Origin: Sternotherus odoratus
Lineage: Eukaryota; Chordata; Testudines; Kinosternidae
Direction: 5' to 3'
Assembly (NCBI GenBank): GCA_032164245.1
Contig: JAVMKO010000195.1
Span: 62,001 to 126,000 of the forward strand
DNA: 64,000 nt
Below the pieces are notes generated by a model. That model saw nothing but the letters and a program-made list of their open reading frames with translations. It was not told where the DNA came from and did not search any database. The position numbers were made by a program, and so were the translations under genes. This document shows, piece by piece, positions 6,201 to 46,045 of the stretch (the stretch's first letter is position 1; every line of letters starts with the position of its first letter).

Positions 6201-8917
6201 TTCTCGGATCTGAACCCCGGAGTCTTCCCGTCTGAGTGTCCTTCTCCCGCTGGCGGCAGCAGTAGGCTGTTACCCATGTGTGTGGATCCTTTGCCAGAGG
6301 GTTCCCTGAGCGCCTGGGGGGCCCAGGCTTCTGCACGTCTGTGTGTCTGTGTGTGGGGGGTTGACCAGGAGGGTCCCCCGGGCACCTGGAGACCCGGTAA
6401 CCCCCCCTCCTTGTCTCACCTGCAGACACCGCCCCTCTGGCGAGCGACAGCCCCCAGCTCCACCACCGGGCCGGGCAGGACGTCACGCTGGAGTGCAGGG
6501 CCCGAGCCCCCCCGGACGCCGAGCGGCTGCCCCACCTGCGCGTGTACTGGCACCTCCTGCGGGAGCTGGAGGGGGGCTCCGTGGTGCACAGCTACCACGG
6601 GGGGGCCGACCAGCTGGGAGACCAGGCCGAGGAGTTCAGGGGCCGGACGCGGCTCCTGCTGCAGGGGATCCGCCAGGGGGTGGCGGTGCTGAGCCTGGCC
6701 GGCGTGCGCCCCTCGGACAGCGGCACCTACCGGTGCTTCATCATGGACGGCCGGGAGGCTGAGCATGTGGACGTCGTGGACGTCGTCCTCCACGTGGCCG
6801 GTACCCGCGGCCCCCGGGCCTGGCTCACACGACCCGCGGCGGGGGGGGGGGGTTTCCTGAGCTCGCTGGCTGGGCGGGTTTCTGACCCTTTCACCCTTCC
6901 CGGGGCGCTTCCCTCACCCGCCAGTGGCTCGACCCCCCGGCGTGGGTTGTGGGAACCGAAGCTGCCCCCCCCCTCGCCCGGAGAGACGCAGCCCCCGCCT
7001 GGGAGCCGGCGCCAACACGGCCGGGAAACCGCCCCGGCTCCGAGATCGAAACGCGTCGCCCCGGCGAGCGCCTCGATTGCAGCCCAATCTTCCGGCGGGG
7101 GCGAGTCCCGTGCCCCCGGGGAGCCGGCCGGCCGGACCCTCGTTCGGGCGCACAGCGGGTTGGAGCCCCGTGTCTCGTGGTGTGAGATGTCGTGACTGGG
7201 GGGCTGTCGATATGCCTCAGCCCTTTGCGGGGTTAGGGGGCCTGTGAGGGAGTGGGACTGTTCTTAATGGTCTCTCGGGAGACTGTGTGCCTCAGTTTCC
7301 CCTGTGCATTTCGTGTCTCTGGGTGGTGGGATCAGGGCTGAGATGGTTTCTCACTCCATCACCCCCCCTTTTCTCTCCTTCCCCAGCCCCGTTCGAGCCC
7401 CCCCAGCTCACCATGCTCTCCCAGGCTGGGGGGCGGGTGGACCTGCAGTGCCGCTCCGCGGGGGGGTACCCCGAAGCCGAGATCACGTGGCATGATGGGA
7501 ACGGGACCCGGCTGGGCCCGGCGGAGCTGCAGAGAGGCAGCCGGGGGGCCTTGGAGGTGCAGAGCAGCCTGTCGCTGGCGCCCCGCCCCGGGGGGTCCAT
7601 CTGCTGTGCCCTGTACCACCCGCCCCTGCAGCAGAACATGAGCGTCTGCCAGACCCTCTCAGGTGAGTGGGGCCGGGACGCTCCCCACAGTCCCCGGGGC
7701 GGGCGGGAGCCCCCTCCCCCCGCGCCACTCGGGGGCCCTGCCGCTGGGGACACCCCCTCAAGAGTGGTCCGAGCGGTAGAGCGCGGGGGGCTGTGCCCAT
7801 CACCGGGGCATCTGGGCTCTGGAGGCTGGATCCGGAGAAAGGGGCACGTCCGCGGGCTGGGACCGGGGTCTGCAGGCCGGCCGGGGGCCCCCGAGTCGCA
7901 GCCCGTGACAGCCCCCCTCCCTCCCCCCCAGCGCTGGAGGCCGGGATGCGGGTGTCGGAGCAGCACGTGCCCGGGTGGGCAATTACTCTCGTGACGCTGG
8001 TACTCGCGACCCTCGTGTGCGCGGTGCTGATCCACCGGGTGCTGCCGCTCATCCCCCCCGAAGGTGAGTGACGGCCGGGGGGGTGGGGGGGTGGCAGGCG
8101 GGGTCGGCGCCGCGGGACCCCCGCGTTGAGTGGAGCCGTCTCCCAGCCGGGTCCCGTGGGAGCCTGGCCCAGACCCTCCGGCTCCGACGGGTTGAAACCG
8201 TCTCGTCTCCAGCCGCCATCGGTCCGTGGCCAGTCGCCCCCCACGTCCTGGGGCCCTTTGGCTCCCCCCAGAGCGACCAGACCCCCCTGAGCGGCGACTC
8301 CGTGCCTGTGATGGGCTCTGTTCCCTGGGCCTGACGCCTCTAGCCCAGGCTAGGCCCCGGCTGGCAAAGTGTCGCTCACCCGGTTCAGCTCGGCCCCCCG
8401 AGGCCTCAGGCGCCGCCCAAGTGACTTAGGCGCCTCGTGTTTTATTGCGAGGCCCAGGGCTCGCTCCGGGTCTGTCTCAGGGGCAACCCGGCCACCTCAG
8501 AGCCTTTAATAACAACACTGCAGCCTAGCGCTTTCCATCCCTAGCGCTCCGTGTCAGCCCCTCGTCCCACAGGTGGGGAAACCGAGTCACGGAGGGGTGT
8601 CCCAGTTCAGTGCTCGACCCACTAGGCCAGGCTGCTTCTCCACTTGCTCAGCTCCACCGCTGGTAGCTGTGTGTGTGTGTGTGGGGGGGAGGGGAAACGC
8701 CCCCCAGCCCCCACCCCAAACCCTAACATTGAATTTTTAGAAGTGAAAGTTACCGTGGAAGGGACTGTGTTCTCCGGGTGGGAAAATCTCGTTGCCGAAA
8801 TTGTTTGCGGGTCAGTGGGACCCCGGCCAGGCTAACGCTGCCCCCTCCCGCCCCCCATCAGGGTTTGACATTGGATGGCGATCGGCGCCCAACTGCCAGG
8901 GCTGGATCTCTGTCTAG
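3229..8917 (+). CDS. B7-family type I membrane protein (V-set, C-set, TM), copy A
   Basis: Five inferred exons: 3229-3283 (signal, ends phase 1), 6426-6800 (V-set), 7387-7662 (C-set), 7932-8063 (TM) and a tentative last exon 8862-8917. All junctions are GT-AG and phase 1; the sum is 297 codons plus stop. The signal peptide is MLQLACWLALLGCVAAG. The V domain has Cys in TLEC and YRC and the B7-type stretch VVHSYHGGADQL. The C domain has GGYPEAEITWHDGNGT and the paired-cysteine element ICCALYH followed by NMSVC. These resemble ICOSLG (IGCC...LLQQNLTV) and other B7 proteins (PD-L1, CD276, HHLA2). The TM is about WAITLVTLVLATLVCAVLI. Family membership is firm, the orthologue is not. If intron 4 is retained, translation stops at 8069-8071 after PPEGE. 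Confidence 0.8.
3413..4735 (+). repeat. Dispersed LTR-like repeat (shared with 43211-44410) in intron 1
   Basis: Long stretches match the region at 43211-44000: the poly-C tract followed by an ACTAACATGTA/AATAAGTAAAAAGTGATTT-type block, and the CCAGCAATCACTCAC stretch. Between about 3893 and 4110 it is interrupted by a TTCTCAAACTGGGGGTCGCG segment typical of hAT-derived MITEs. No coding potential was recognised. Confidence 0.6.
4735..5700 (+). repeat. Second LTR-like repeat, TGTGACAGAGTCAGACC type
   Basis: Begins TGTGACAGAGTCAGACC and contains phrases typical of a chelonian LTR promoter region (CCAATCAGGGGCTGGCTG, then GTTAAAAACCCTCCC). The end is not resolved. A diverged relative may lie at 50870-51600. 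This is inferred from composition and phrasing; no library comparison was possible. Confidence 0.4.
8862..8917 (+). other. Tentative terminal coding exon of B7-like copy A
   Basis: A pyrimidine-rich acceptor ends at 8861. Entry in phase 1 gives an 18-residue tail, GFDIGWRSAPNCQGWISV, then TAG at 8915-8917. It is chosen because it follows the TM exon in phase and has a good acceptor. No conserved signalling motif is visible, and other tail exons further downstream are possible. Confidence 0.4.
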
Positions 8918-15175: not shown

Positions 15176-18100
15176 ATGTGGGTCCTAGTGAGTGTGTCCC
15201 TCCTGCAGCTCACGCTCCCGGGCAGCGCCCCGGACAGGGGTAAGTCAATGGGGAGTCACCGGTCAGTTAGCACGGTTACGCCTAACGGTTCCCCTGTGCA
15301 TTGTGAACGCACAGCATCCCTACAGCGGCCAAGGGGTAATTAATGATAGGGCAGCGTGTGTGTGTGTGTGTGTGTAATTGTGCGTGCGTGTGTGTGTGCA
15401 CGTGTGTGTGCACGTGTGTGTGTAATTGTGCACGTGTGCGTGTGAGACCCTGCCGCTGCCCCGGCTGCAGGGAGACTACAGGTTGAAGGGCCAGCGCACA
15501 GAAGTATTGACCGTCCTAGAGGTTCCCTTCTCCTCCCTGCAGGCGGGTGTCTGAGGCGGATCGGTGGGTTCTCCGTGCTGCAGCAGCCCCCGCGGGCGGT
15601 GAAGGAAACCGGAGCCGCTGTAGAGATGAACTGCACCCTGGCACTGCCCCGGGGACGCCCCAGGCCCAGCAGCGTCCTCGTGACCTGGCACAGGGGGCTC
15701 AGAGGGGACGGCCTGACGGGCGCGGGGAAGCTCTCCGAGCTGGAGGAGCTGCGAGGCCGGGTGGAGACGGGCTGGCTGGAGAACGTCTCTGCCAGCACCC
15801 TGCAGATCCACAGCCTGCAGCACAACGACTCGGCCCTCTACCTGTGCCTCTTCGTCGTCTTCCCCTCGGCCCAGCCCTGCGTCCTCCAGGGGAACGGGAC
15901 CCGCCTGACGGTGACAGGTACGGGGGGTCACACCTCTGGGTGCACCACACAGCAGGGGCTGCGGGAAGAGGGGAATCAGAGCAGGGGTTAGATACCCTGA
16001 GTTGGGTCTGTAGACAGAGACCTTCATGCTGCAGCCAGACTCGCTCTGTGCATGTCCTGCCTCTGCCCAGGGCCACGTTCCGGCCGGCTGGGCCCGTCCA
16101 GCCTCCCACACGGCCCTGGGCACAGAATCCCTCGCCACCGAAGAGCCGGACGGGGCCCTGCGTGGGTCCGTGTGCCCGAAGGGGAGGAGACCCGGGCACA
16201 TGACAGTTGCCAGAGAGAGAACCGCCGCTCTCCCCAAAACCGCCTGCTTGTCCTTGACAATCCTTTCCAAATGAATCTCCCCGGGGAGATTTCCGCTGAA
16301 GGGGAAGTCAGAGACGTGCCAAGCCCCTGGAAAGGAGGGGCTGTGATGGAACGGCCCAGCCAGCCTTAGCCCTGGCGGTCTGTCTACCGCAGGGCAGCAG
16401 CGGGGCGTCTGCCAGTCCAATCAACAGCAGTAGCTAGGCCCAGATCCGCGGAGGTACTTGGCACTTCGCTGCCTTTGACTTCACTGGAGGTTAGGAGCCT
16501 AAACACCCTGGTGGCTCTGGGCCCACGTCCGCAGCGACTGCACGAAGCCTCGGGCACGGCTGCCTGTTCGGGGGAAGCTCTGCCTGGGGGCAGGTTTGGG
16601 GCTTTTCTTTACTGGTGATTCATTGTCCTCTCTTGGTTTGTTCTGCGATTGGGCTGTCTCAGGGTGGCTGCTTGGTAGCGCTGGAGGGACCGTTCCACAG
16701 CATCTCCTCAAGGCGTCAGGCCGGATCCGGCTGGTCTCTGGACGTGTGTCCCACAGCCGGCTCCCCTCGGTCGAACGCTTTGTCCCCAGCTCCCCCAGGC
16801 TTTGTTCTGCCCTGGGTGGCCCCTCGCTGTGTGCGCCGGCTCTAGGGAGACAGACGACGCAGGGTACTGTGAGTCTAAATCAGCCGGAGCGATTGCGCAC
16901 ATTTCGAGGGGCCTTTCTTCCCAGCGCAGTTAACACTGAGTGGGCACTTCCCTTTTCTCTCTCAGGTTTCTCCATGCCGGGAAACACGACCCAGCCCGGC
17001 CCACCTCACAGCGCGCTGGCCAGCTGGGGGCTTCTTCCCCTGGGCCTGGGAGCCCTGGGGAGTCTAGCGGGCGCCTTCCTGCTGTGTCTGCACAGGAAGA
17101 GGACAGGTGAGGCTCTAGCTCTGTGACCCGGGGAGCCCGAAGCTGCCCAGGCTAGATGAAGGAAAAGGTGCGTTTGGAAAAGCAGGGGGCTGATGTGACT
17201 TGAACCCCCACTCCGCATGGTAATGCCACCCCTGGCTGTGCTGGAACCCAGCAGCTCCCTCCATCAGGTCGTGGTTCCTAACGCGGGTGAGCTGGGGAAG
17301 TACTGAACCTCGCGGATTGCAGTAACACTGAGAGCCAGCCTGAGCTCCGTCCGCACAGCTCTTCGGAGAGTGCTGGGGGGTCGCTCCCCCGGGCTCCAGA
17401 CTGTGTAGACAGGCCCTGCCCCACAGAGGTGCAGGCGAAAAGCCAGGCTGAGGCAAGACATGTTCGCTAACCCCGACTGAACCAGAACCTGTTCTCTGGA
17501 GTGTTGCACGTTAACCCTTTTACCGTGATTTAGCAGGTCAAAGTGACGGGGGGCAGGCAGATTTCTAGGCTACTGCGTGCTCAGCTAACCTGACGGTAAA
17601 GGAGTTAACTGCAAAGGCACAAATGTCAAGGGGCGAGTCAGTGTTCGCCCAAAAAGCGCCGGTTTGTCGTCTAGACACAAGCCTGGAGAATTGGGAGTTT
17701 GGGGTTTTATAAAAGCCATTTCAGAACTGAGTGGGTGTGAAAAATAGTGTTTTTCCCTAGGGAAGTGTCCGAGCCTTTAAACTGCTCAGCTCACCTCACG
17801 TGGCTTAAGGCACAAGACTCTCAAACTTGCCTGAATCCTGCTAAGCGTCCGCTTTGAACAGATTTTCATTTTTGAATTGTTGGGTGAACTTTCAGAACAG
17901 CTGCTGCTATTAGCACGTCAGCCAAGTTAGGTACCTGCGTTTGGCCAGGCAGAGCGGCCCGGCTTTGGATTTTCTTTTTTCGTCGCCCAAGGTCACTTTC
18001 CGTTTGTCCACAAACAGGGCGAGCTCCCAGAGCGCTGCACCCATCGCCTCTTGCTGGGGCAGGTCACTCCGCGGGTCACGGCCTTCGCTTGATGGAGGTG

Positions 18101-18531
18101 AGTTGAGTCCACGAATTCGGGCAGGTTTGTCGCTGTCACTGTCAGCGTGCAATACACCCGCTGCACTGTTACAAGTTTGCAGTGCCCAGCACGTGGGTAT
18201 TGCTGGCGCCTGTTACAAGCCGGTTACATGGCTGCAGAACCGTATCCCACGGTGGCCTAGCTTCAGCCTTTCCCCGTCTAATTTCCTTGCGCTGCAGGAG
18301 TCTCCGAGTGAGGGAGAAGAGGTCACGTATGCAGAGCTGAGAATCCAGCCACGGAGCGAGAGGAGAGCGATGAGGGTGAATTCCCGAATGACGGCAGGAG
18401 AGATCACATACACCGATCGCAGCATCCAGCCACAGAGCAGAACAACGAGAGCAAGTTCCCCAGCAACGTCTCCCTCCAACACGGACTACGCTGCGGTTAG
18501 CAAGGGCAGAGCAGACAGCATTCTGTACTGA
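15176..18531 (+). CDS. NCR3-like: NKp30-like receptor with inhibitory (ITIM/ITSM) tail
   Basis: Five inferred exons: 15176-15239 (signal), 15543-15917 (V domain), 16966-17106 (stalk and TM), 18146-18192 (linker), 18298-18531 (tail). Together they give 286 codons plus stop in one frame. The V domain spans about residues 22-146 with Cys in MNCTL and YLCLF, VTWHRG, and a J-like end GNGTRLTVTG, which closely resembles NKp30 (GNGTRLVVE). It has four N-glycosylation sequons. The TM (about 167-188) has no charged residue, unlike mammalian NKp30. The tail has VTYAEL (Tyr220, canonical ITIM), ITYTDR (Tyr247, not canonical) and TDYAAV (Tyr273, fits the TxYxxV ITSM pattern). An inhibitory role through SHP phosphatases is inferred. 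The 47-nt linker exon uses a weak donor (CAC|GTGGGT), which is the least certain junction. A GT microsatellite lies in intron 1. Confidence 0.8.
15353..15450. repeat. GT/GC microsatellite
   Basis: Interrupted GT/GC dinucleotide tract of about 100 bp in intron 1 of the inhibitory NKp30-like gene. Confidence 0.8.
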
Positions 18532-19407
18532 GCCAAGGGGCATTTCCGTAGGGCAGCTACACCAAGCGCTGTCTCTCCGGCTTTTAGCAAAGAGAGGACA
18601 GGATAGCTGTGTAGACAGTCATCTTAGTGCCCAGTTCCTCCGCAGGGTGCTTGTCTGCCCCACGCAGGTTTGATGACAAGCCCAGGGACAGGAAAACTCG
18701 GTGTAACTAGGTTGCAAAATCCTGTTTGTCGGTAGGTGTTCAGGCCAGCGGGGCCCATTGTTCCCAGGCAGTCTGACCTCCTGCCTAGCCCAGGTCAGAG
18801 AATCTCACCCCGCGAGTCCGGCATGGGAGGGAATTACTCTTCCCCACTACACAAGCGGGGCTGCGCCTAAGTGGTTTAGGAGCACAGATCCATGCGCTGA
18901 AGTCATTTACTGTGTCTAAATTGAAATTTTTCTTGGGAAAATCTTGATTCTGCCGAAAAAATGTCGATTTTCCAACAAGAAATGTCAAAATGCAAATCGT
19001 CATCTATGAATCAACATTTCAGAACAAAGTGACACTTTCTGTTTTGACATAAAATCTCCTTTACTTTTGGTTTTAAAAAAGCAAAATGAAAAGTTATGTT
19101 AAGACAAAAAACAAAAAATGTTGCTTGGCTTTGAAATATCATGTTGAAGTGACAATTTCTGTTTCATTTCTGTCAAAACATTTTTCATGTCAACATTTCG
19201 GATTTGAAATTTTGGGGGACTTTTCATGCCATAGTTCAACAGTTCGATTTTCTGTTCCAACCAAGTGCCCCATGGGCTGAAAAATTCCATTTCCTGAGCT
19301 GTTCTAGCAGTTCCCATGGCCTGTAAAAACCTTCCCTTTGCTCCTAGTTGGAGTTATTTAGGATTTTCTTCCTGTTTTGATGGAACCTCGTCATTCCTGT
19401 GTAACTG

Positions 19408-19413
19408 AATAAA
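19408..19413 (+). terminator. Candidate polyadenylation signal
   Basis: AATAAA about 880 bp after the stop of the inhibitory NKp30-like gene. It sits at the end of a T-rich repeat-like stretch (18900-19310), so its assignment to that gene is tentative. Confidence 0.3.
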
Positions 19414-19875
19414 CCCAGCATTTCCCAGCACAAGGCCTGGCTGATCGATCTATTCATAGCGTGGCTGGTTGGAGAGACCCTGCTTAGCAGGGCCGTATTT
19501 GCTCTCCCATCCTACTGGAAGGTGCAGTATGTGACTCAGCGCCTCGTGAGTTTTATCCACTTTGTCTGTCCTCGAGTGCTGACAGCGCATCACAGATGAA
19601 TCGCCACTGAAATGAACCATGATTCCCTAGGAGGAGAGGATGGAATAGGCAGGGCACTGCAGCCACCCTAGAGCCAAGCAGATCTGATCAGAGTCTTGGA
19701 ATTCATTATCCTGTTCACACTGCCACAGCAGATTAGCACCATGGGGGAGTTACTGGAGCAGGGATGGGGTATAATTGGCTTTTTGCTCTTTGGTTGACAT
19801 CTACCCAGAGACCCCGTCACTGATTTGTGATCCGCGTTTAAGGTTCGGTTAGTGTCTATCTGCATGAATGCCATA

Positions 19876-21300
19876 TGCCCTGAAGCACTTAGAAGAGAGG
19901 AAAGAGATCAGGAACAGTCGGCATGGATTCACCAAGGGCAAGTCATGCCTGACTAACCTAATTGCCTTCTATGATGAGATAACTGGCTCTGTGGATGAGG
20001 GGAAAGCAGTGATGTGTTGTTCCTTGACTTTAGCAAAGCTTTTGATACGGCCTCCCACAATATTCTTGCCAGCAAGTTAAAGAAGTCTGGGCTGGATGAA
20101 TGGACCATAAGGTGGATAGAAAGCTGGCTGGATCGTCGGGCTCAACGGGTAGTGATCAATGGCTCCATGTCTAGTTGGCAGCCGGGATTGAGCGGAGTGC
20201 CCCAAGGGTCGGTCCTGGGGCCGGTTTTATCCAATATCTTTATCAATGATCTGGAGGATGGTGTGGACTGCACCCTCAGCAAGTTCACAGATGACACTAA
20301 ACTGGGAGGAGTGGTAGATACACTGGAGGGTAGGGATAGGATACAGAGGGGTGGGGGTGTGGCGTGGGGGGTGGGGAGGAGTGGTAGATACACTGGAGGG
20401 TAGGGATAGGATACAGAGGGGTGGGGGTGTGGCAGGGGGTGGAGGTGGGGGTGGGGAGGAGGGTAGGGAGAGGATACAGAGGGACCTAGACAAATTAGAG
20501 GACTGGACCAAAATAAATTTGATGAGGTTCAACAAGGAGAAGTGCAGAATCCTGCCCTTAGGATGGAAGAATCCCATGCACTGCTACAGACTAGGGACCG
20601 AATGGCTAGGCAGCAGTTCTGCAGAAAAGGACCTAGGGGTTACAGTGGATGAGAAGCTGGATATGAGTCAACAGTGTGTCCTTGTTGCCAAGAAGGCTAA
20701 TGGCATTTTGGGCTGTAGAAGTAGGGGCATTGCCAGCAGATCAAGGGACGTGATTGTTCCCCTCTATTCGACATCGGTGAGGCCTCATCTGGAGTACTGT
20801 GTCCAGTTCTGGGGCCCACACTACAAGAAGGATGTGAAAAAATTGGAAAGAGTCCAGAGAAGGGCAACAAAAATGATCAGGGGCCTGGAGCACATGACTT
20901 ATGAGGAGAGGCTGAGAGAACTGGGATTGTTTAGTCTACAGAAGAGAAGACTGAGGGGGGATTTGATAGCTGCTTTCAACTACCTGAAAGGGGGTTCTAA
21001 GGAGGATGGATCTAGACTGTCCTCAGTGGTAGCAGATGACTGAACAAGGAGTGAGGGTCTCAGGTTGCAGTGGGGGAGGTCTAGATTGGATATTAGGAAA
21101 AACTTTTTCCCTAGGAGGGTGGTGAAGCATTGGAATGGGTTACCTAGGGAGGTGGTAGAATCTCCTTCCTTAGAGGTTTTTAAGGTGAGGCTTGACAAAG
21201 CCCTGGCTGGGGTGATTTAGTTGGGGATTGGTCCTGCTTTGAGCAGGGGTTGGACTAGAACCTCCTGAGGTCCCTTCCAATCCTGATATTCTGTGATATT
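19876..21300 (+). mobile_element. CR1 LINE, 5'-truncated, frameshifted
   Basis: Reverse transcriptase segments occur in three overlapping frames: [37 protein letters not shown] and FTDDTKLGG (FADD-box region, Ala to Thr), then [15 protein letters not shown] and [13 protein letters not shown]. The 3' UTR ends in a typical CR1 tail (GGTCCCTTCCAATCCTGATA then TTCTGTGATATT). Frameshifts and an internal tandem duplication at about 20305-20470 make it inactive. Confidence 0.9.
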
Positions 21301-22799
21301 GACCTAGCTCTGCTCAGTAGGGACCTCACTGGGGTGGGCATATGTAAAATAAAGGAAATATATTTACAAATCACCTTGCTCTAACCTGGGCCTCCAGTAG
21401 AGCCAGAAGAAAATATTTCACTGAAAATTTTTCCTACTGGAAAATCTAGTTTTGTCAAACTTAATTTTTTTCCTGGGAAACGTCAATTTCAACAAACAGT
21501 TTTGATTTTTCCAAGTGCCATTTCACTAGGAAACTGCCTGTGTTGATTTAGAAAGTTTTATTTCACATGGACATTTCTGCTTCAAAGGTCCCGTCACTCG
21601 AAATGTCTGTTCCAAGCCGAAGGGCCTAGTTTGAATCCCCAGTTCAGAACCAAACATTTCATTTCAGCATTTCCAGATCACAACTGTCCAGAAATGTTTG
21701 CTTCATGACACTTCCTGATAGTTTGATTTTCATCCCGATTTGGGGATTTGTTGAAATAGCCACAGGCTGGAAATTCCCTCTTCTGACCATCTCTATTGGA
21801 AATACTTCAATGACAATTGTGTAGTGATCGCATGTCACTGCTGAGCCTGGTTACAGTCCTTAGCTGGGCACTGACATACCTGAACATATTTTGGTCTAAA
21901 GTTACACTTCAAAGAACTGTGAGTTTCTTGAGTTGACATTGCTCGGTTTGGGGACAGTTACCACATCCCAGCAAGATTTGTTTCTACTTCAGTTACTACA
22001 ACATGCTAGTACATCATCTCAGCCTTAACTCCAGATTAGCGGGACTTTTTATTTCGGGAACTCTGCAGTTCTGTACTTTCCGTACCTTGCATGTTTTTAA
22101 TGGCGGCTTTTCGAAGAATTAGAACAGCCAGGCATGGCACTGAATTGACAGTTGAAATCAAATGTATTTGTTTGATGCCCACTGTTAAAAATACAGACTT
22201 TCTTATCAATTTACAAAAATAAAATCAGGACAAATCCATATAAAATTCAGAGCCATCCAAGAGCCGTTCCCGGCTGTGGCTGGGAGGTCTCCCCCCGAAG
22301 CAGAAGCAGAGGCAGAAGCAGGGCTACATGGCAGGAGCTGGCCCTCATGTGAATGGCAAAGGCTGTCGAAGGGCCCAGAGGAGATCACCGAGGTGAGTGC
22401 CGCTCTGACTGTCGGAGAGGAGCAAGAACGGAAAGGCGGAAGGCAGCTGAGAAGCAAGGGCAGAGGGATAGTCACACAGCCTCTCCCTGCCCCCGTCAGA
22501 AGTACGGGACAAGAGGGGTTTGCAAAGGAGAGCTCTTTGATGCTGGCATGAAGCGGGGGAGTGAGGGGCAGGAGCTGAGCTGGAAGATGCTCCGATTCCC
22601 ACGCACGATCTGCTGCCCCCGGGCATGTTCTGCGCTGGCCGCTGGGCCGGACTTTGCTCTGGCTGTTCTTCTGAGTCCTGGTCCATGAAGTGGTTTCTCC
22701 AGCTTCACTCGGGGGTCCCTGTAACGCAGTGAGAATTCATGCTCAAGGGCAGGCCCCCGGCCCCGCTGTTACCTGTCTGGAGTTACACTGGTCCTGGAG
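21301..22799. other. AT-rich intergenic DNA between the convergent NKp30-like genes
   Basis: Contains diverged repeat-like phrases (AAAATTTTTCC, GAAACGTCAATTTC). On the minus strand AATAAA at 22048-22053 could serve the activating NKp30-like gene, but this is weak. No other exon was recognised apart from a relict tail exon at 22650-22718. Confidence 0.35.
22650..22718 (-). pseudogene. Relict of the ITIM tail exon in the activating NKp30-like gene
   Basis: On the minus strand an acceptor TTACAG ends at 22719. It is followed by codons reading GPPSEAGETTSWTRTQ, which align with ESPSEGEEVTYAELRI of the inhibitory gene, both in phase 0 after a short linker exon. Ser-Trp replaces the ITIM Tyr-Ala, and the reading frame already stops in the preceding exon. 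Homology rests on a short match, so it is tentative. Confidence 0.4.
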
Positions 22800-25700
22800 T
22801 TACTCTGCCCCCGCAGGTGTCACTGGAATGGAAGCGCAGGGAGCTGCCCTGACCTTTGACTGCTTCACAACGGTAGCTGCATGATGGGCTTAGTTCCTGC
22901 CTCTCACCTCCCCTCATCCTGCGCAGGCAGAGCACCACGGCAGCCGTGAGAACGATCCCTGCTCCCAGCGCCAGCAGCCGGATGGTCCAGTGATGCTCAG
23001 GCAGCTCCCTGTGCTCTGAGCTGATCTGGGTCGTGTTCCTCCGAGCAGAGAACCCTACGAGAGGAAAGGGGAACCCCCGGATCAGCAGGTGGTGGTGTTG
23101 AAATGTCCTGACGTGCCCTAGGAACACAGGCCCAGAAGAGACACTGGGGGTCGAAAACCTGCCCTGTCAGCACGGCTCCGGTTCAGCACAGCACGGAGAC
23201 GTGCTTCACATTCACACCCGCTTTGACCTGAGCGGGACGGAGACACGGGCCTGGGGGGTTCCTGCCTGTGTGTGCAAAAGCTGCACCCTGCTTGTGCTGT
23301 TGCCTGGGATTCAATGGGCACAATCGATTGAACCAATTAACTTCCTCACGTGGATCCAGCCCTTTGGTGCGGTGCCCTTCACCCCTCTGAGCGCCCTGAG
23401 ATGGGTTTGGCTGCAGTGCATTCTGCAGCGCCGGCCGCTAACCCGATTTCAGAGTGCCCAGGGAGGGGGCTCCCCGACGCACCCACATTTCAATAATGGT
23501 GGAGTTTGAGTTGAAAGAGCAGTTCCTAGTGTACCCAGCGCCTCGGGGCTCCGCCGATGGCGGCTTAAACCCCTTGCAGTACCAGGCCACCAGTGGGCTG
23601 CGTTAGCTCCTTAACCCCCTGCTCTGATTCCCCTCTTCCCGGCAGCCCCCGCTGTGTGGTGCACCCAGAGGTGTGACCCCCCGTACCTGTCACCGTCAGG
23701 CGGGTCCCGTTCCCCTGGAGGACGCAGGGCTGGGCCGAGGGGAAGACGACGAAGAGGCACAGGTAGAGGGCCGAGTCGTTGTGCTGCAGGCTGTGGATCT
23801 GCAGGGTGCTGGCAGAGACGTTCTCCAGCCAGCCCGTCTCCACCCGGCCTCGCAGCTCCTCCAGCTCGGAGAGCTTCCCCGCGCCCGTCAGGCCGTCCCC
23901 TCTGAGCCCCCTGTGCCAGGTCACGAGGACGCTGCTGGGCCTGGGGCGTCCCCGGGGCAGTGCCAGGGTGCAGTTCATCTCTACAGCGGCTCCGGTTTCC
24001 TTCACCGCCCGCGGGGGCTGCTGCAGCACGGAGAACCCACCGATCCGCCTCAGACACCCGCCTGCAGGGAGGAGAGAAAGGGAGAATCACCCCCTCCTGC
24101 CCTGCAACACACGCCACCATCATCCCTGAACAGATACCGTGAGAAGCAGCAGTTCAAGCCGGAAGTCCCTGGGTGGTCTCTTGGGACACTGCCCCCTCCC
24201 ACCCTAAAATCCTGTAGTTCTCACCGCTGCGGCAGCTTCCAGAGGGGGATTTCCCAGGAGGCTGTGAGGTCTCTTCTCTACATGTCTGACCCCGAGAGCC
24301 CAGACCCCAGGTTCTGAGGGGCCTGGCAGCCATGACATCCCCTGGGTTGCAGTTCAGCAGCCAGTAAGACTAGAACCTGTCTTCTTGTGGGATAATCTAG
24401 CAATCATCATATCGGGACAGTTTTTAGCCCCTGCGAAGCCCCTTCTCTGCTGGAGAAGTGTGTGACACTACAGCCCATATTACCAGGGCAATATCATTAC
24501 GATGTGAGGTGTGAGTGGGGAAGTGATGCTTGGCTGACTATGATTATCCTGTTTGGGGGCGTGTATCATTTTGGAATCTGGAGTTATGAGTATTGAGTAT
24601 GGAGCTGCACTTAGATGTGTTTGCTCCTGGATAACACCCACAAGATGCTGAAATAAACTGGTTAGTCTCTAAGGTGCTACAGGTATTCCTCGTTTTATTT
24701 ACCCACAAGGTAGTTTCCAGCCCGTCTAGCCAGCACATTGTGAAGGGGCTGCCCAAGCTGAAAGGCCCGTCAGCAAAGACAATGGGCCATGGGGCAATTT
24801 ATCCCCACCGGCTGTGCTTTCCTGTGGATGCTTCAGCCACTATATGGGTACTGGCTGCCATGAATCATCAAAGCAGGCAAGGACACGGGACTAGGTCATG
24901 TGATACTGGACTCCATTTTGGTGCTTGTATTTTTCCCACAAAATGTGCCGGGGGCTTTGTTTGGGACAATGAAGTTCTTCCCCGCCACTTGGAAGAAGCC
25001 AAAAAAGGGGGAAGTGACATCACTGTGCCTCACTCCCCCTACAACACAACCCCTGCAAACACCTGAGGAACAAAGACTGAACTGGGGGAGGGGGGCCCAG
25101 GTGGGACAGAAGAAAAGCTGTAGCCTGCTTGTGCTGGCTAACAAGGTGAGACACTGCTTGATTCAAACCCTGTCTAGTTTAGAAGGCTGAATTTTTGTTT
25201 TATTTCTTAGGTAATCTGCTTTGGTCTCGACGCTCACTACTTCCAATCACTTAAAATCTCTGTCTGTAGTTAATAAACCTGTTTGATTTTTTTTGCTAGA
25301 AGTGCTTGGGGAATCTGATCAGGAACAAAGACTGGTCCTCTCCACTTTGAGGGGGCCGGATTGAGTAACAAACCTGTACTGGTTGAGCTTCTGAGCAGGG
25401 CAAGATGGGACAGTTCTGGGGTCCCAGGCGGTGGAACTGGGGAGTGAGCTGGCAGGAATCTCTTGGAACCGCGGCTGGGCGGGTCCCTGCCTGGGTGAAG
25501 GTCTGTGTGAGAGCAGGGCCGGGGCCGTCGGCAGCTAGTCACAGCCTCACCGTGTGAGAGGGGCCCAGACTGGTGTCCCAGCTCCGGTCGCACCCCAGGG
25601 AAGTGCATCACAAAGTGACATTAACAAGTATTTACATTGCAGTAAAAGGTAGAATCATGAGAAATACAAACCCAGCCACAGAATACTCCTCGCCAGGCCA

Positions 25701-27854
25701 GTCTCACAGCAGTGAAATAAAGTGACTGGCTCTTACGGACTAGGAGCTTCCAGCGTTCAGAACGTACATGCATATAGCACAAAGACCAGCCTCCCACCCC
25801 CGCAAAGTCCAACGGCTCGAAGACAGGATGCAATGATTGGAGGTTGACACTGGGCAAACTCAGACCGGAACTAAGACGCACATTTTTAACAGTGATGGTA
25901 ATTAACCACTGGAACGATTTCCCCCGGGCGTGGTGCATTCTCCAGCACTGGCAAGTTTTAAATCAGGATTGGATGTCTCCCTGCGAGATCTGCTGTAGGA
26001 GTGACTTTGGGGGCAGGTCTCTGGCCCTGTTAGGCAGGGGGTCAGGCTAGATGATCACGCGGTTCCCGTCTGGCTGTGGAGTCTATGAATTGCCCCTAGC
26101 AAAGTACGTGCAACATTTACTAAGAGAGGGTGGAGCAGTCTGCACTCGGTGCCCTGATCTGCAAGAAGGGATTTTCGGAAGGCCACCCGCTGGCACTCCA
26201 CCACTGCCACAATCTAACTCCTCACTCAGGGGTTGTGCAGCACCTGGTACCATCAGGTCTTGACCCAGGACTGCTAGGCACTGCACAGTACAACATAGAC
26301 TGGCTCTCAGCACTTTTACCAGCCTGTTGGCAGGTTTCCTAAAAATTGCCGGTGTAGACATGGTCCCAAGGCATTGCTTAGGCAGCTGTTTGCCAGCAGG
26401 GCCTCCTGTGCCCGTCCAGCCCCATGGACTCTCACCCAACAATTCCTGCATCTGGAACAGAGCGACCAGGTGAGCCAGGGTGCAGCTTTCAGAGCGAGAC
26501 ACCCCATTGCGATTTACAGCCTCCAGGGGACGGAGAATCAGGGGTGCTCCACTTGCCTTCCTGTCCCAACGATTCTGGGATCGTGGCTATTTAACACCCA
26601 AGAGCCTTTTCCAAAGGTTTCTTTTCTCTGTCTAGTGCTGGGGGAGACTTTCCAAAGACATTGGTGCATTCAGGAGCGAGAGACCCGCTGAAAGCGTACG
26701 TGTTACAAAGAGTGGGTGTCGCAACAGCTTAGGGGCAGGCTGGCAACCCTCACTTCATGAACGTCTGGCTAGGGCAAGCGAGACCTACCAAAACCTGCCT
26801 TTTATTAACAAGAATCTGAACAAAGAGCCAGAAAAAGGCCGCGAAGAAATAAACGTGACAATAGGAAGCTGTTCTGGAATGTACGACGTTCTCAATGTGC
26901 GGATACATCTTACTACCCGCTCTCCATTTGTCCACTGGGCCAGAATGAGCTCCGAGGTATGTACCATTGCACTCTACATGCTCAGACCCAGAGAAGAGTG
27001 CGTGGCCTCACTGATCTCTAAGCACTGGGGCAGGACTGATTTCAGCCATGGCTTATCAACAGCCTTCAGCCTCCTTACGGATGAGACTTACAGTCTTCCT
27101 CAATTGCTGCTCCTGTCACTCCAAACTCTTCTCACAGAAAGTTCCTCTGAAGATTTTAGAGGAGGTTTCCCAGCTGCGTGGTCTGTCCTTACTGAGTCCC
27201 TGAGTCCTCCTTGTAACACACCAAACACAATGGAAACTCACTTCTCCATCTTTTCAACGGGGATCGGCAAACTGAGCGCAGCTCACAACATGCAGAAGAA
27301 ACATCCAAGGAGCGCGAGTTTGGAGTGGGAAGGAGATGAGAAATCAGCAGCATCTTCCAATGGGACACAGCGTGTGGCACTGTCGTTCTCTAGTTCATTC
27401 TCGGGACTGTTATTGGCTATCCCAATGGAGAGAGAGTAAAACCCGCTCATAAGCCCTCTACGCTGTCACCCATAGTTAAGAGAAGGCACATCAGGAACAA
27501 CCTGTGTGCGCAAAGAGATGGAGTGGATTGTCTGAGAGGTTTTAGAGTTAACTTTTAAACTCTAAATGAATGCTTCTTGTTCAGTGAGTAAACACTGCAC
27601 ACCTCTCCATCTCTGCGCGGAAAAGAAACAAGCAGGTTATTTGGTTCTTTTCACGGCCACTGAAAGCAGCACACGCAAATCCTGTGTCTTATACTGGCAC
27701 CCTTACTGCAGTGCCTGGCATAACTATATACACATCAGGCATACAAATGCTGACCAAGTCCTGGCGTACCAATAAGCGTCTCATACTTACTGCTCTCCTG
27801 GGAACTGGCTGAGACTGCGAGCAGGAGGACGGAGAAACACAGGCGGGTTTGCAT
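22800..27854 (-). CDS. NCR3-like: NKp30-like receptor, short-tailed activating type
   Basis: Minus-strand exons: 27854-27791 (signal, MQTRLCFSVLLLAVSASS), 24061-23687 (V domain), 23054-22908 (stalk and TM), then 22822-22800 ending in TAA inside a 50-nt exon (donor at 22772). They sum to 202 codons plus stop; all junctions are GT-AG and phase 1. The V exon (residues about 22-146) reads the same as that of the inhibitory gene. The TM is about WTIRLLALGAGIVLTAAVVL, with Arg172 near its N-terminal end, like the Arg in the NKp30 TM that pairs with FcR-gamma or CD3-zeta. The cytoplasmic part is only about 12 residues (RRMRGVTPAGAE) with no tyrosine. Activating signalling through an adaptor is inferred. 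The weakest point is the 3.7-kb gap to the signal exon, although phase and exon length (64 nt) match the sister gene. Confidence 0.78.
24440..25300. repeat. Unclassified dispersed repeats in intron 1
   Basis: Within intron 1 of the minus-strand receptor gene. It includes GTTAGTCTCTAAGGTGCTAC at about 24660, a phrase typical of the 3' part of a turtle SINE, and AATAAACCTGTTTGATTTTT at about 25272, a repeat-type end. Confidence 0.4.
25845..26096 (+). mobile_element. CR1 LINE 3' fragment
   Basis: Diverged 3' end including TTAACCACTGGAACGATTTC, the region that encodes the RT C-terminus in CR1, and a 3' UTR phrase GTCAGGCTAGATGATCACG followed by an octamer-type end (GAGTCTATGAATT). Confidence 0.6.
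26100..27790. other. Intron DNA, no exon recognised
   Basis: Intron 1 of the activating NKp30-like gene. A 194-codon frame on the + strand (26855-27439) has no domain, no splice support and odd composition, and is treated as chance. Confidence 0.4.
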
Positions 27855-30231: not shown

Positions 30232-30760
30232 TCAGGCCTGCCCCCCCTCAGCCCAGCACATCCCCGTCTCCCTGCACCCGGGGGGGCTCTGCCCGGCCCC
30301 CCTCAGCCCGGCACATCCCCGTCTCCCTGCACCCGGGGGGGCTCTGCCCGGCCCCCCTCAGCCCGGCACATCCCCGTCTCCCTGCACCCGGGGGGGCTCT
30401 GCCCGGCCCCCCTCAGCCCAGCACATCCCTGTCTCCCTGCACCCGGGGGGGGGGCTCTGCCTGGCCCCCCTCACCCGGCACCTCCCCGTCTCCCTGCACC
30501 CGGGGGGGGGGCTCTGCCTGGCCCCCCTCAGCCCAGCACATCCCCGTCTCCCTGCACCCGGGGGGGCTCTGCCTGGCCCCCCTCACCCGGCACATCCCCG
30601 TCTCCCTGCACCCGGGGGGGCTCTGCCTGGCCCCCCTCACCCGGCACATCCCCGTCTCCCTGCACCCGGGGGGGGCTCTGCTCGGCCCCCCTCAGCCGGC
30701 ACCTCCCCGTCTCCCTGCACCCGGGGGGGCTCTGCCTGGCCCCCCTCTCCAGCCCTGAGC
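30232..30760. repeat. GC-rich minisatellite, about nine units of about 52-60 bp
   Basis: Tandem units built on CACATCCCCGTCTCCCTGCA followed by CCCGGGGGGGCTCTGCC. Units differ in G-run length and in ACATCC/ACCTCC. Open frames across it on both strands (for example 30161-30964) are products of the repeat and not genes. Confidence 0.9.
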
Positions 30761-32732: not shown

Positions 32733-33312
32733 GCTTCCTAGGGAGCGATTCCAGACCATCGCCCGGGCATGCCATGACAGGAGGGAAGTGGCATATCTTG
32801 ACTTTAGTAAGGTGTTAGGACCGGAAGACATTGTGACGGGCAAGCACTAGGAAGTGCAGTTACGCTTCTAAGTCAACTCCAGGAGAGTGCATAATGATGC
32901 TATGAGAATGATGCTATCTGTGTGTTTGGGAACAGTTCCCAGACTGTTCCCAGCTGTGTGAGTGTTTACCCCATCTGTGTGAGAATGAATGTGTGGGAAA
33001 CTAAATGGGGAAACTAAGGCAGGTCTGTGTAACCAACAAGTGCTGACCAATCAGTTGTTGCTTGCAAATGAGACATGAGTATGTATGAGATGCAAACGTG
33101 TGAGTGTATTTAAGCCCACTCCCGTATTTGCTAGTGGGCTCTTCCAACCTGGCAATGGCTCTGAAGTGCTAGGTAACCCTTTCTGCGGTCGCGCTGATCA
33201 GAATCGGGCCCCTCAGCGCCTATTTGAGGGACCGAGGCCTTCCAATAAACTCATCTACTTTCTACAACCACGTGTGTGTGCCTTGTCTCGCAAAATCCAA
33301 AGTACCTCACAA

Positions 33313-34428
33313 CAGTAAGGCTTTTGATACTCTTGTATGACCTGCTCATAAACAAACTAGGGAAATACAATCTAGATGGAGCTACTATAAGGTGTGTGCA
33401 TAACTGGTTGGAAAACCGGCCCCAGAGAGTAGTTATGAGCAGTTCACAGTCACACTGGAAGGGCAGAATGAGTGGGGTCCTGCAGGGATCAGTTCTGGGT
33501 CTGGTTCTGTTCAATATCTTCATCAATGATTTAGATAATGGCATAGAGAGTGCACTGATGAAGTCTGTGGACAATATGGAGCTGGGAGGGGTGGCACGTG
33601 CTTCGGAGGACAGGATTAAAATTCAAACTGATCTGGACAAACTGGAGAAATGGTCTGAAGTCAATAGGCTGAAACTCAATAAGGACAAATGCGATGTCCT
33701 CCACTTAGGAAGGAACAATCAGTTTCACACACACGCAATGGGAAATGACGGCCTAGGAAGGAGAACTGCGGAAAGGGATCTGGGGATCAGGGTGATAACA
33801 AGCTAAATAGGAGTCAACAGTGTAACGCTGTTGCAAAAAAAGCAAACGTCATTCCGGGCTGTATTAGCAGGAGTGTTGTAAACAAGACACGAGAAGTAAT
33901 TCTTCCGCTCTGCTCCACACTGATTAGGCCTCAACTGGAGTATTGTGTCCAGTCCTGGGCACCACATTTCAGGAAAGATGTGGAGACATTGGAGAAAGTC
34001 CAGAGAAGAGCAACAAACATGATTAAAGGTCTAGAAAACATGAGGGAAGATTGAAAACACTGGGTTCGTTTAGTTTGGAAAAGAGAAAACTGAGAGGGGA
34101 CATGATAGTTTTCAAGTAGGTAAAAGGTTGTTACCAGAAGGAGGGAGAAGAATTGTTCTTAACCTCTGAGGTTAGGACAAGAAGCCAGTAAGGGAGGTTG
34201 ATGTTGGACATTAAGAACAACTTCCTAACTGTCAGGGTGGTTAAGCCCTGGAACAAACAGCAGAGGGAGGTTGTGGAATCGCCATCCTTGGGGATTTTTA
34301 AGAGCAGGTTAGACAAACACCTGTCAGGGATAGTCTATAATACTTAGTTCTGCCCTGAGTGCAGGGGCCTGGACGAGATGACCTCTCGAGGTCCCTTCCA
34401 GTCCTGTGATTCTATGATTGTATGATAG
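33313..34428 (+). mobile_element. CR1 LINE, 5'-truncated, inactive
   Basis: RT pieces NWLENRPQRVVM, GSVLGLVLFNIFINDLDNG, LDKLEKWSEVNRLKLNKDKC and ERDLGIRV, then a frameshifted C-terminal part. In the FADD region the sequence reads VDNME, so the catalytic motif is lost. The 3' end is TCTATGATTGTATGAT, a CR1-type octamer repeat. Confidence 0.85.
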
Positions 34429-37836: not shown

Positions 37837-40800
37837 ATGTTCCGATTGGTCTGCTTTCCTGTGCTGCTGGGATGTGTCATTGCAGGATCAGGTGAGTTAC
37901 AACCCACGGGGCTGTGCTATATGACAGAGTGATTACTGGTGGGGAAGTAAAGTCAAACCCACGGCTGTGTGGAGTTATTAACACCACGTTCTCCTTCTCC
38001 CAGAGCTAAGTGACAAATCAAACATCCACTCCAGAGCGGGGGAGGACGTCACCCTCAGCTGCAGATTCAAGCTGTCCTCAGACTTTGTGCTGAACAGACT
38101 CCGGATCCACTGGCACATCTTCCGGGACGAGGAGGGCTCCGTGGTGCACAGCTACTACGATGGGGCCGACCGGCTGGAGGACCAGGAGGTGGAGTTCAAG
38201 GGTCGGACGAAGCTCTTTCTCCAAGAGCTCGGTGAGGGGGTGGCGTCCCTGAACCTCACCCGGGTCCGGCCGTCAGACAGCGGGGAATACAGGTGCATCA
38301 TAGTGAACAGCCAGGATGTGGTCATTGGGAGCGTCATCCTCCATGTATCAGGTAAACGGATCATGCTCTGCCCAGCGAGTACAGCAAACTGGAGGTGGGT
38401 TAGCTAGGTCTGCAGGGTGCTCTGGGCCCCATGTGTGAGAGGAGCGTGAGCTCTGCAGAAAGAGCTTCCATCACCCCTTCTCCAGGGCCGTGGGACGGCA
38501 CCCCGGCTGCTCCTCAGGGGCCGGTGGGGTGAGCCGGTCCGTTTTGCTGTCTGGATGCAATGCAGGCAGCAGGCAAGGCTCGGAGGGTTAAGGAGGATAC
38601 CGCTGCTGAGCCCTGCAGTGAACTGGGCTCTCTTGGCTGCTCAGGGATCTGTGCCCACAAAGGCTAACCAGAGCTCTTGCTTTTCAGCACCCTATGATCT
38701 GCCCCAGATCATGGTCCTTTCCTGGGAGGAGGGCGAGATGACCCTGCAGTGCAAGTCCAGCGGGGGCTATCCCAAGGCCGAAATAACCTGGCACGATGGG
38801 AACGGAAACCAGCTGAACCAGTCGGAGCCGGCAGAACTTCATCGGAGCAGCGAGGGGGTGTTCCAGGTGCAGAGCCACCTGGTGGTGACCGGCCCTGAGG
38901 ACAAGACCTTCTGCTGCTCTCTGATCCATGCCCCCTTTAACCAGAACCTGAGCGTCTGTGAGCGAGTTACAGGTAACAGTGACAAGCCTCGGCCAGCGCT
39001 GGGGTGCACTCTCCCTGATACACAGGGGAGACCGAGCACCGCAGACATGCAGCCAGCTCTGGGGTGGAAGGTAGTAGCTGTTCTGCAGCGGACACCAAGG
39101 CAGGGAAGGGTTTCATTTGGGCAAACCCTCAAGCTCTGGCTTGTCTGAACATTGCCAGGGGGCAGTTGTGGCAGGAACTTTAACCTCGGTCCCAGCACCT
39201 TGGGGTTTGCGGGCTGCGTCTGGAAGGAAAAGCCAGGATGCAGTGAGCGCCTGGGACTCCGGTTTTCTCTTTGGTGAGCTGAGCTGACGCTGCCAGGAGT
39301 CAAGGCCAGCTTGCTGGGAGAAGAGGCGTTTTTACACTTTGACACCGATTGGAGCCATTCCCTCTCCCGTGCGGGTCAGGGACTCCAGGCTCATTCTGGA
39401 GAGAGATAGAGTCCTCCCCCCCGTCGCTATCTGAGGCCACGTCTCCGCTGCGGGGACTAGTGACATCGCCAGGGCGCTGGAGCTCGGTCGGAGTAGCCCT
39501 GTCGTGCAGATGCAGCCTGTGCGGATGTCAGGGGGTTTTCTGTCGCTGGAGGAGTTCCACCTCCCCAAGCGACGGCAGCCAGGTTGAGAGACGCATTCTT
39601 CTGTCAGCCCTACACTGGGGGGAGCTTGGCATAACAGCAGCACTCAGGGCTGTGCGTTTTCACACCCCTGAGTGCCAAAGCTGTGCTGAGTCAATTTAAC
39701 ATGTCGGCCAGGCCTGAATGACTTATCCACTGGCAGGAGACCCAGTCCTCAAAGTCTTTCCAGTACCATTGCAAAGTGATCCCATATGCCTAGTATCTGA
39801 CCACAGTCTATCTCCTGAGCCCTCAATCGCCTACTTTTAACCTCTCCAAACGCAGCCTTGATGAAGGAGAACGAGTCTGAGGCAGAGAACTCTGGCCACA
39901 GCAACGCTTGGATTTTTGCCATCGTAGGCGTGGTAGTAACGGTTGTGGTAGGTGTTGGATTCTATATGTACCGGAGAAGAAGACGGAGCTCTCGGAAAGG
40001 TAACAGCATTGGAGAACTAATCCATACTACGTCTTTCCTCTTTTTCCCAGGGGACCCATTTGTCTGGATAACAAACTATGGAGTAGGCCGCTCAGTGATG
40101 AGCAGCTGGGGCACCCAAATGCTCCCCTCCATGTAAACTTAGGAGCAACATCACCCGCCAGGAGATATTTGTGAGGGCTGGAATTAATAATGTGTCTAGA
40201 AAGTGGGGAGGGTGAGAGGATTCTTACTAATGGATCTGCTGCTAGACCAATTTACCAATAGGACAAAGTCTTCTTCTCATACATGATCCATCCATCAGTC
40301 TGGAAATGGATCACTGGGAACTAGTGAGCAGGGAAGCCACCTGTTCTTTTTCAGAAGATACTCAGAGGCTTCCCGCTGCAGCCAGGTGACCCCACTGGGG
40401 ACCAGTCCCTTAGTGTGTCCTTCAAAGAGGAGTTGCAGGCAGGTTCCTGTACCTCATATTTCTAGGATAGTCAGTCAGGTAATTTCCCTGAAACAGAGTC
40501 ATTTCAATAAGATGCTACCTGTTGGAAATATTGTAACTGACAGAGTCTGGAGTTAGAACAGGCAAACACAAGAAATGAGCTGTGAAGCGTTCTTTGCAGA
40601 AGGATGTAGCACAGTCTGACTGTACCATGCAATAAAGGGTTACCACGTTCTGGCTCAGGGTTATGCTCTTAATTTCAGCTACTCCTGTATGCTACAGCGC
40701 AGAAAACGAAGTTCACCTGCAGACAGACGACAACGGTAAATACCCAGAGCTGAATTCTGTGATGACTCCTTCACATGAAGGTGTCACATGTGACACGCGG

Positions 40801-44410: not shown

Positions 44411-46045
44411 CTTTATAATCATCTCCCCATAAAGTCTGCTGAGTCTGGGGTGTGAAAGCTTTGCACACTGCACAGTGAGCTGGGGAGCGAGTCTCCCTTG
44501 GGCAGAGGACACAGTGGCTCTGCATGTCCAGTTCTGGGTGGGAGGCTGGTCACAATGCACAGCTGTGTGGGGTTCTTGGCCCAGCATGGCTCTGTAAAGG
44601 GGGGGGGGATTCCTAGGTGTACCCTGACGTAAACTGTTAACAACTATAAAACTAACAGCACACAAAGCTATTGTGGGATAACATGAACAGAGCAGTGGGT
44701 CTCTGGGGTGATGGAGCAGGACTGACTTGGCTGGGAGATGCACTTGCTTAGACAGCCTTGGGCCCTGAGTGTTTGATTGCCCCCTTCTGCGGGAAGAAGC
44801 CAAACGGACACGGGGACTGCGGTGGAGAGAACGACACCGGAGAAAACCGGGGTCTGCTTTTATTACATGCAAACAACATTAGGAAGCATACATGACAGTG
44901 ATGGATAATTCTGTTTACCTCCATTCTCATTGGTGGTAAGGACCCCCACACCTCTCCTTCCCGGGAGGGGGGGATATGGCTGTGAGCCCTCGTTTTTCCA
45001 TGTGTGTCAGCGCTTCCAGGGGAAGGCTGTACATATTAGGGCTTTCCGTTGTGATAGGAAACCTTGGCAGCAATCCGGGTTCAAGGAGAGAATCACTGTG
45101 TGGCGTGCCAGCACATATGTTTCTCTTCACCCTTCTATGGACATGACTTTGAAGCTTGGCATGTGATCTCAAAAGTGAGAACTCCAGAGGCCTGTGAAGA
45201 ACCAACAAATCTTATTCTCTGAACTCCTCCCAGTTTCATTACCCTTCCTGTAACTAGGCCAGGTCACCCTTTTGCTCTCCCTGGTGTTAGGTTACACAAG
45301 CTGAGCACTCAAAGTTAGGGGATGCCAGATTGCCAGTTGCTTCACTTCACTCTGCTCTGGGCTTTCACTCTGTGCATGATGGAACGAGGCTGGGGGTCTG
45401 TGGAGAACAGACCGGGGTCCTGTAATTAAAGGCTGTATCACAATGCATACAAGGGGGCTGGATGAAAGTCGCATGGGCTCAACTTTGCAACTCACATAGC
45501 ACTTCTAATGTGGTTTGTAATGTAATTGTGCAGACAGTATGCGCTGTATGGGGTACATGACATTGATATATGTGGGTCAAGTTGTATAAAATAAAGAATT
45601 TTACAAAGGTCAGTTAGGGCTCCTACGTGCCCTTTGTAATAATATGGGGATTGCCTCATAGGGGCAGAACCAGGTGTCTGGAAAGATCAGGTGGAGGCTG
45701 GACAAGTATTTTACAGAGGCAGAATGGAACGAGGCCAAGGGGAGGACGTGAGAGCTTTGGATTAAACAGAAACTGTGGACAGGTGGGGTATAACTCTCAG
45801 GCATGAAGTTGCTGTAGGGGGCAGAACTGAATTTCCATTGAGGAGATCAGCAGATTCCTTTGATTCAGTGGGAGCTAGAAATGAGAGCAGGAGGAGAAAG
45901 CATTGTCACACTGGGAGCCAGGGTCATCAATAGCTTTAGTAAAAGCCAGGACAGAGCGGAGTGTACCGAGAGAAGTACACGGGTGGAGAGAGGGGCACAC
46001 AGAGAGAATGCAAACATCACCATATGTATGTATTGCTTTTTGCAG
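44411..46045. other. DNA upstream of the GTPase exon
   Basis: Ends in the acceptor TTGCTTTTTGCAG at 46045. The frame of the GTPase exon stays open back to 45961, but that part is intronic in composition and has no ATG start. A separate first exon or promoter for the GTPase could lie here but is not evident. Confidence 0.35.

Follow-up and report, generated by a model that had tools for sequence, protein, structure and literature searches.

PILRA and PILRB are paired receptors with a single immunoglobulin variable (V) domain, carrying either an immunoreceptor tyrosine-based inhibitory motif (ITIM) in the tail or a charged transmembrane segment; in the activating chain, PILR-beta, the charge is a lysine and the partner is DAP12. 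To our knowledge, NKp30 is encoded by one gene in mammals, which lacks an ITIM. Among other receptor families, Xenopus CEACAMs (ceacam301/303 and 350/351) have a binding exon that is homogenised together with its splice sites between poorly conserved introns, and their ITIM genes are opposite in orientation to the activating partners (PMC5112662). Primate SIGLEC11 and SIGLEC16 are likewise an inhibitory and an activating gene of opposite orientation, separated by about 9 kb, with an ectodomain region kept alike by conversion and an adaptor-coupled activating partner (PMC5701461). The purpose usually proposed for such pairs is that the activating twin answers pathogens exploiting the inhibitory one (PMC5112662, PMC5701461). 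Here we describe two convergent single-V receptor genes in a 64,000-nucleotide (nt) stretch of DNA from the turtle Sternotherus odoratus (GenBank assembly GCA_032164245.1, contig JAVMKO010000195.1, positions 62,001 to 126,000 of the forward strand), referred to below as the window. We consider it probable that the two are paired receptors, that is, old, oppositely oriented paralogues that would share one binding face owing to a recent interlocus gene conversion of the V exon and its splice sites.

The window contains no Ns and is numbered from its first letter. Donor ranks are percentiles among all GTs of the window. Gene 1 (inhibitory type) lies on the + strand and gene 2 (activating type) on the − strand, and their exon models converge, in agreement with the tail-to-tail arrangement of two single-V receptors put forward in a preliminary description of this locus. 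Both genes have open reading frames with plausible splice sites. Their exons and the tract that they share are the following.

15176..15239, + strand: gene 1 exon 1 (64 nt, phase 1), carrying the start codon and encoding the signal peptide MWVLVSVSLLQLTLPGSAPDR; donor GGG/gtaagt in the top 0.5%.
15543..15917, + strand: gene 1 exon 2, V domain ending GNGTRLTVT; 375 nt, phase 1-1.
16966..17106, + strand: gene 1 exon 3 (141 nt), encoding a short stalk and an uncharged transmembrane segment that has HRKRT at its inner end; acceptor top 0.0%, donor top 0.1%.
18018..18097, + strand: gene 1 candidate exon 4, which would set the frame; 80 nt (2 mod 3), open, donor GAG/gtgagt top 0.1%.
18298..18531, + strand: gene 1 exon 5, tail with VTYAEL (ITIM), ITYTDR and TDYAAV, the last of the immunoreceptor tyrosine-based switch motif (ITSM) type; acceptor top 2.2%, stop codon 18529-18531.
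27791..27854, − strand: gene 2 exon 1 (64 nt, phase 1), carrying the start codon and encoding the signal peptide MQTRLCFSVLLLAVSASSQES; donor top 4.2%.
23687..24061, − strand: gene 2 exon 2, V domain, identical to that of gene 1 (375/375 nt).
22908..23054, − strand: gene 2 exon 3 (147 nt), encoding a stalk and an arginine-containing transmembrane segment (WTIRLLALGAGIVL) that has RRMRG at its inner end; acceptor top 0.1%, donor top 0.4%.
22773..22822, − strand: gene 2 candidate exon with an early stop, giving the tail RRMRGVTPAGAE; 50 nt, acceptor top 3.7%, donor top 3.0%.
22618..22718, − strand: possible decayed ITIM exon of gene 2 (weak candidate); acceptor top 2.2%, giving RRMRGGTPE when joined to the transmembrane exon.
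15529..15965, + strand: first arm of the identical inverted tract; 437 nt, 100%.
23639..24075, − strand: second arm of the identical inverted tract; 437 nt, 100%.

Comparison of the two V exons (15543-15917 on the + strand and 24061-23687 on the − strand) revealed identity at all 375 nucleotides. Each exon comprises 124 whole codons and one split codon, whose residue is Gly in the + chain and Ser in the − chain, the preceding exon ending in G or A, respectively. The preliminary description had these exons encoding the same 125 residues; the identity was thus borne out, with the count of shared residues corrected to 124. A repeat finder returned the tract as an inverted repeat of 437 nt, whose arms are 100% complementary and lie 7673 nt apart. 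With gaps allowed, the repeat spanned 460 columns at 99.57% identity, with one gap and one mismatch, both at the tract's 3' end, where about 20 further bases seem to preserve older homology. The identical tract consists of the V exon, 14 nt before it and 48 nt after it, and hence includes the splice sites. The absence of differences at 437 sites places the upper 95% bound of divergence at about 0.7% (rule of three).

The other exons of the two genes are diverged. The transmembrane exons are identical at 96 of 136 aligned nucleotides (71%), none of 1000 shuffles being as good, and the signal exons at 38 of 64 (59%), again with none of 1000 shuffles as good once the 21 nt upstream were added. 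Beside the tract, 186 nt of intron 1 and about 200 nt of intron 2 gave alignments that did not rise above the best of 200 shuffles. Alignment of the 400 bases upstream of both start codons scored 32, against a maximum of 28 in 200 shuffles, a slight similarity that is in line with old paralogy. Because the 437 nt are without a difference beside exons that are just ~60-70% identical, the V-exon identity is, on these comparisons, not chance. Taken together, the identity of the V exons, the divergence of the transmembrane and signal exons and the unalignable adjoining introns indicate that the two genes would be old paralogues in which one exon, that of the V domain, was recently homogenised. Of the possible routes to identity, we infer interlocus gene conversion, in which one gene would have passed its V exon, splice sites included, to the other. 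No third copy of the V exon was found in the window by tblastn, the next-best match (E 0.043) falling inside a CD276-like V domain. We did not retain base composition as evidence of conversion: the V exon has a GC content of 0.70 (0.90 at third positions), against 0.56 for the window, which fits repeated conversion, but the adjoining intron already reaches 0.62.

The locus holds a near-identical binding domain in two linked genes, with homogenisation confined to the binding exon and its short flanks, and resembles the two systems introduced above, in which paired genes of opposite orientation are kept alike by conversion. It also differs from both. In Xenopus CEACAMs, the shared domains are N domains, putative pairs share 80-93% of the V-domain residues, and the activating partners bear an ITAM (immunoreceptor tyrosine-based activation motif) or ITAM-like motif of their own (PMC5112662). 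SIGLEC11 and SIGLEC16 are head-to-head genes for multi-domain sialic-acid lectins, and the region kept alike is ~2 to 3 kb long and covers several exons (PMC5701461). The signature of paired inhibitory and activating receptors, as proposed in the preliminary description, therefore finds good support both in the anatomy of the two genes and in these two close precedents. The paired reading is likely; its mechanism is already known, and the place is new.

The V domain of gene 1 scored 30.0 bits against the Pfam V-set profile and that of gene 2 scored 30.9 bits (cut-off, 26). In gene 1, the transmembrane segment, WGLLPLGLGALGSLAGAFLLCL, has no charge and is followed by HRKR; the best 19-residue hydropathy of its exon is 1.95. 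The ITIM exon is open over 77 codons and contains the three spaced tyrosine motifs VTYAEL, ITYTDR and TDYAAV. The uncharged segment and the motifs are thus as first described. The transmembrane exon, with its phase-1 end, and the ITIM exon, which must be read from base 1, are not in frame with each other when joined directly. Joining of the five exons, with candidate exon 4 included, gave an open chain of 297 residues. Between the transmembrane and ITIM exons, loose splice-score limits yielded six open in-frame candidate exons, the three best of which use the common donor 18097 with acceptors 18018, 18063 and 17949. Three acceptors that would join the transmembrane exon directly to the ITIM frame scored above 0 (17534, 17537 and 18146). 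The weak acceptor 18146 (score 0.2) also yields an in-frame tail, open to the natural stop, with no added exon. Acceptors 17534 and 17537 were discarded, as both lead to stops within the first dozen or so residues. A candidate exon of 2 mod 3 length within 16966-18298 may act as a switch, its inclusion turning the ITIM tail on and its skipping turning it off.

Gene 2 has the opposite anatomy. Its transmembrane segment, WTIRLLALGAGIVLTAAVVLCL, has an arginine at the fourth place (WTIRLLALG...) and no lysine; by eye, it aligns without gaps with that of gene 1 from W to CL, the R standing opposite an L. The tail has 12 residues, RRMRGVTPAGAE, with the 50-nt exon included and 9 residues, RRMRGGTPE, with that exon skipped, which upholds the earlier description of a short-tailed partner with a transmembrane arginine. 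Read-through of the transmembrane-exon donor would give a 46-residue tail, in which we saw no ITIM or ITSM pattern by eye. The decayed ITIM exon was not accepted as proof of an inhibitory ancestor and is kept as a weak lead, the alignment tests being contradictory. In an anchored alignment, 1 of 1000 shuffles was as good; with intron bases left out, the candidate ranked 191 of 3955 CAG sites; and when the ITIM exon was aligned locally to the gene 2 region without an anchor, a different position was preferred (12 of 500 shuffles as good). Homology between the 50-nt exon of gene 2 and the 80-nt exon of gene 1 was likewise discarded, 208 of 1000 shuffles being as good.

These features suggest how the two chains might signal. 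A transmembrane arginine near the outer membrane face is typical of receptors that partner FcR-gamma or CD3-zeta. In gene 2, the arginine, which lies near that face, could pair with an acidic residue in an ITAM adaptor of this type, and ligand binding would then lead to activation. In NKp30 and NKp46, the transmembrane arginine has TCR-zeta and/or FcR-gamma as its interaction partners (PMC5371597). In gene 1, ligand binding would lead to phosphorylation of VTYAEL and TDYAAV, and the phosphotyrosines would recruit the SH2 phosphatases SHP-1/2 and thereby inhibit the cell, provided that splicing restores the frame, for which the exon ending at 18097 is the best candidate. With identical V domains, the two chains would presumably bind the same ligand.

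Several observations weigh against this pairing. Direct splicing of the transmembrane exon to the ITIM exon gives HRKRTGVSE followed by a stop, so the predicted inhibitory tail requires either an unproven exon with its donor at 18097 or the weak acceptor 18146, and the acceptor of candidate exon 4, at 18018, is mediocre (top 7.3%). Taken alone, the tail motifs are weak evidence. Among 539 stop-free six-frame segments of at least 60 residues in the window, 37 contain an ITIM-type and 4 an ITSM-type motif, and 3, gene 1 included, contain both within 90 residues. These points bear on the explanation that only one of the two genes works, gene 1 being a receptor without the ITIM tail (a decoy with the short HRKRTGVSE end) or gene 2 a decaying copy. 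The early stop after direct splicing and the weak acceptor of exon 4 would fit the former, and the weakly supported tail exons of gene 2 the latter. We nevertheless regard this explanation as unlikely: the ITIM exon has kept its long open frame with spaced tyrosine motifs, donor 18097 ranks in the top 0.1% and has in-frame acceptors, and the signal, V and transmembrane exons of gene 2 are intact. It is very unlikely that the shared V exon is an artefact of assembly or polishing, in which one copy replaced the other. Such an error would leave two otherwise diverged genes perfectly identical over 437 nt, as they are here, but each V copy lies between its own unrelated introns in the correct splice phase, the gap and the mismatch fall at the 3' end where older homology seems to continue, and exon-limited conversion has been published for another family (PMC5112662).

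The identity of the family to which the pair belongs is a separate question, and here the outcome differs from the preliminary description, which had called both receptors NKp30-like. The GNGTRL end of the V domain and the transmembrane arginine of gene 2 agree with that name; the PILRA scores, which are the same, and the absence of a transmembrane arginine from the ITIM chain do not. BLASTP of the V domain gave 33.5 bits with human NKp30, with 33/116 identities across the whole domain including the GNGTRL strand, and 35.0 bits with human PILRA, with 21/89 identities in a match ending before this joining (J)-like strand. In a panel of 24 V domains, 23 of which were reported by phmmer, PILRA reached 16.7 bits, NKp30 16.6, immunoglobulin V lambda 12.1 and human PD-1 4.2. 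Global alignment z scores were 11.2 for NKp30, closely trailed by immunoglobulin V lambda (10.9), T-cell receptor (TCR) V beta (10.5) and PILRA (10.3). A PDB search with the V domain retrieved antibody fragments and TCR chains alone among the matches listed (60 of 181). A structure model of the domain, made with no alignment, had a mean pLDDT (predicted local distance difference test) of 42, too low for the model to be used. AIF1, a class III neighbour of mammalian NCR3 in the major histocompatibility complex, was not found in the window by tblastn with one human query, and mammalian synteny may not hold in reptiles.

Together, these results make it quite possible, at somewhat less than an even chance, that the pair is real and belongs to another single-V lineage, PILR-like or of an unnamed reptile family, its likeness to NKp30 being that of any generic V domain with a J-like strand. 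The parity of PILRA with NKp30 in two tests, the close z scores, the antibody and TCR matches and the lack of AIF1 all favour such a lineage. Against it stand the J-like strand itself, which PILR lacks and which the NKp30 match covers, and the arginine of the activating chain, in place of the PILR-beta lysine. Gene 1 has no transmembrane arginine and was for this reason not filed as an NKp30 orthologue. NKp30 membership of the V domain is therefore weakly supported, and since the PILRA scores equal those of NKp30, the data take the label no further than a V domain that is NKp30/PILR-like and has a J-like strand.

The literature matches listed gave nothing useful on PILR outside mammals. They also showed no paper on an inhibitory paralogue of NKp30; papers on Xenopus NKp30, reportedly later work by Flajnik and Ohta, lie outside that scope. 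This agrees in part with the earlier suggestion that an inhibitory partner of NKp30 would be new, but a human splice form, NKp30c, has already been described as inhibitory (PMC5371597). That claim of novelty was based on the NKp30 label, weakly supported here, and such twins are known in other receptor families. In human and rat, NKp30 (NCR3) has AIF1 on one side and LST1 on the other (PMC2375005), and it has been called a VJ gene of the major histocompatibility complex (PMC10751288). A 2006 survey did not find NCR3 in the then-current frog genome and found none of these class III genes to have a chicken orthologue (PMC1654159). Homologues of PD-1 and cd28hl3 that bear ITIM/ITSM motifs have been described in a CD28-family survey (PMC11599192); by eye, the signature given there for complementarity-determining region 3 of cd28hl3 does not fit the present V domain.

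If both chains are made, one identical V domain would serve stop and go signals in this animal, and exon-limited conversion in oppositely oriented pairs would appear as a repeated way of keeping twins matched. If the V domain is of NKp30 descent, NKp30 was, or became, paired in one lineage, which would bear on the origin of an activating natural cytotoxicity receptor.

The receptor pair is flanked by two genes resembling CD276 (B7-H3), and a further B7-like gene lies near the end of the window.

6401-8071, + strand: first CD276-like gene; V domain ~6446-6799, C domain ~7401-7661, transmembrane segment by eye.
37982-40136, + strand: second CD276-like gene; V domain ~38009-38353, C domain ~38687-38944, transmembrane segment by eye.
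60522-62530, + strand: B7-like gene with a signal peptide; B7-type V domain 60937-61269, possible last exon 62370-62530 with KKLDQVLSVLQQISRKLD near the end.

Each CD276-like gene encodes a V and a C2-type domain, and the two V domains are 52-54% identical to each other. That of the second gene had CD276 as its top PDB match (84.8 bits, two matched stretches), and the C domains of both match a CD276 Ig-C sequence. NKp30 is the receptor for a B7 molecule, B7-H6 (PMC5371597). A by-eye guess that the V domain at 60937-61269 is that of B7-H6 was rejected, since the PDB search ranked CD276 and PD-L1 best and B7-H6 lower, at 29.5 bits. No transmembrane segment was seen by eye in the 60522-62530 product, which is perhaps a secreted B7-like protein. 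Because ligand-type and receptor-type genes are linked here, our guess from gene position is that the CD276-like proteins are the first ligands to try. The full combination, a reptilian inhibitory/activating pair of the NKp30 lineage with one shared face and with the flanking CD276-like products as its ligands, is distinctly unlikely. If true, receptors and ligands would be inherited together as a cluster at this locus, and the B7-H3 branch would gain candidate receptors.

The remainder of the window contains the following. In the presumed intron of the B7-like gene, a minisatellite with a unit of ~35 bases is present in 17 copies (61295-61918). A single open frame of 1598 codons (45943-50739, + strand) encodes a very large GTPase of the URGCP/GVIN type (Pfam URGCP_GTPase, 653 bits). 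At 51827-53641 on the + strand lies a 604-codon reverse-transcriptase-like open reading frame of a long interspersed nuclear element (LINE), CR1-like by eye, and further LINE pieces were recognized by eye at 19999-21043 and 33249-34054. A tandem array of a 55-base unit, in ~9 copies, occupies 30236-30747.

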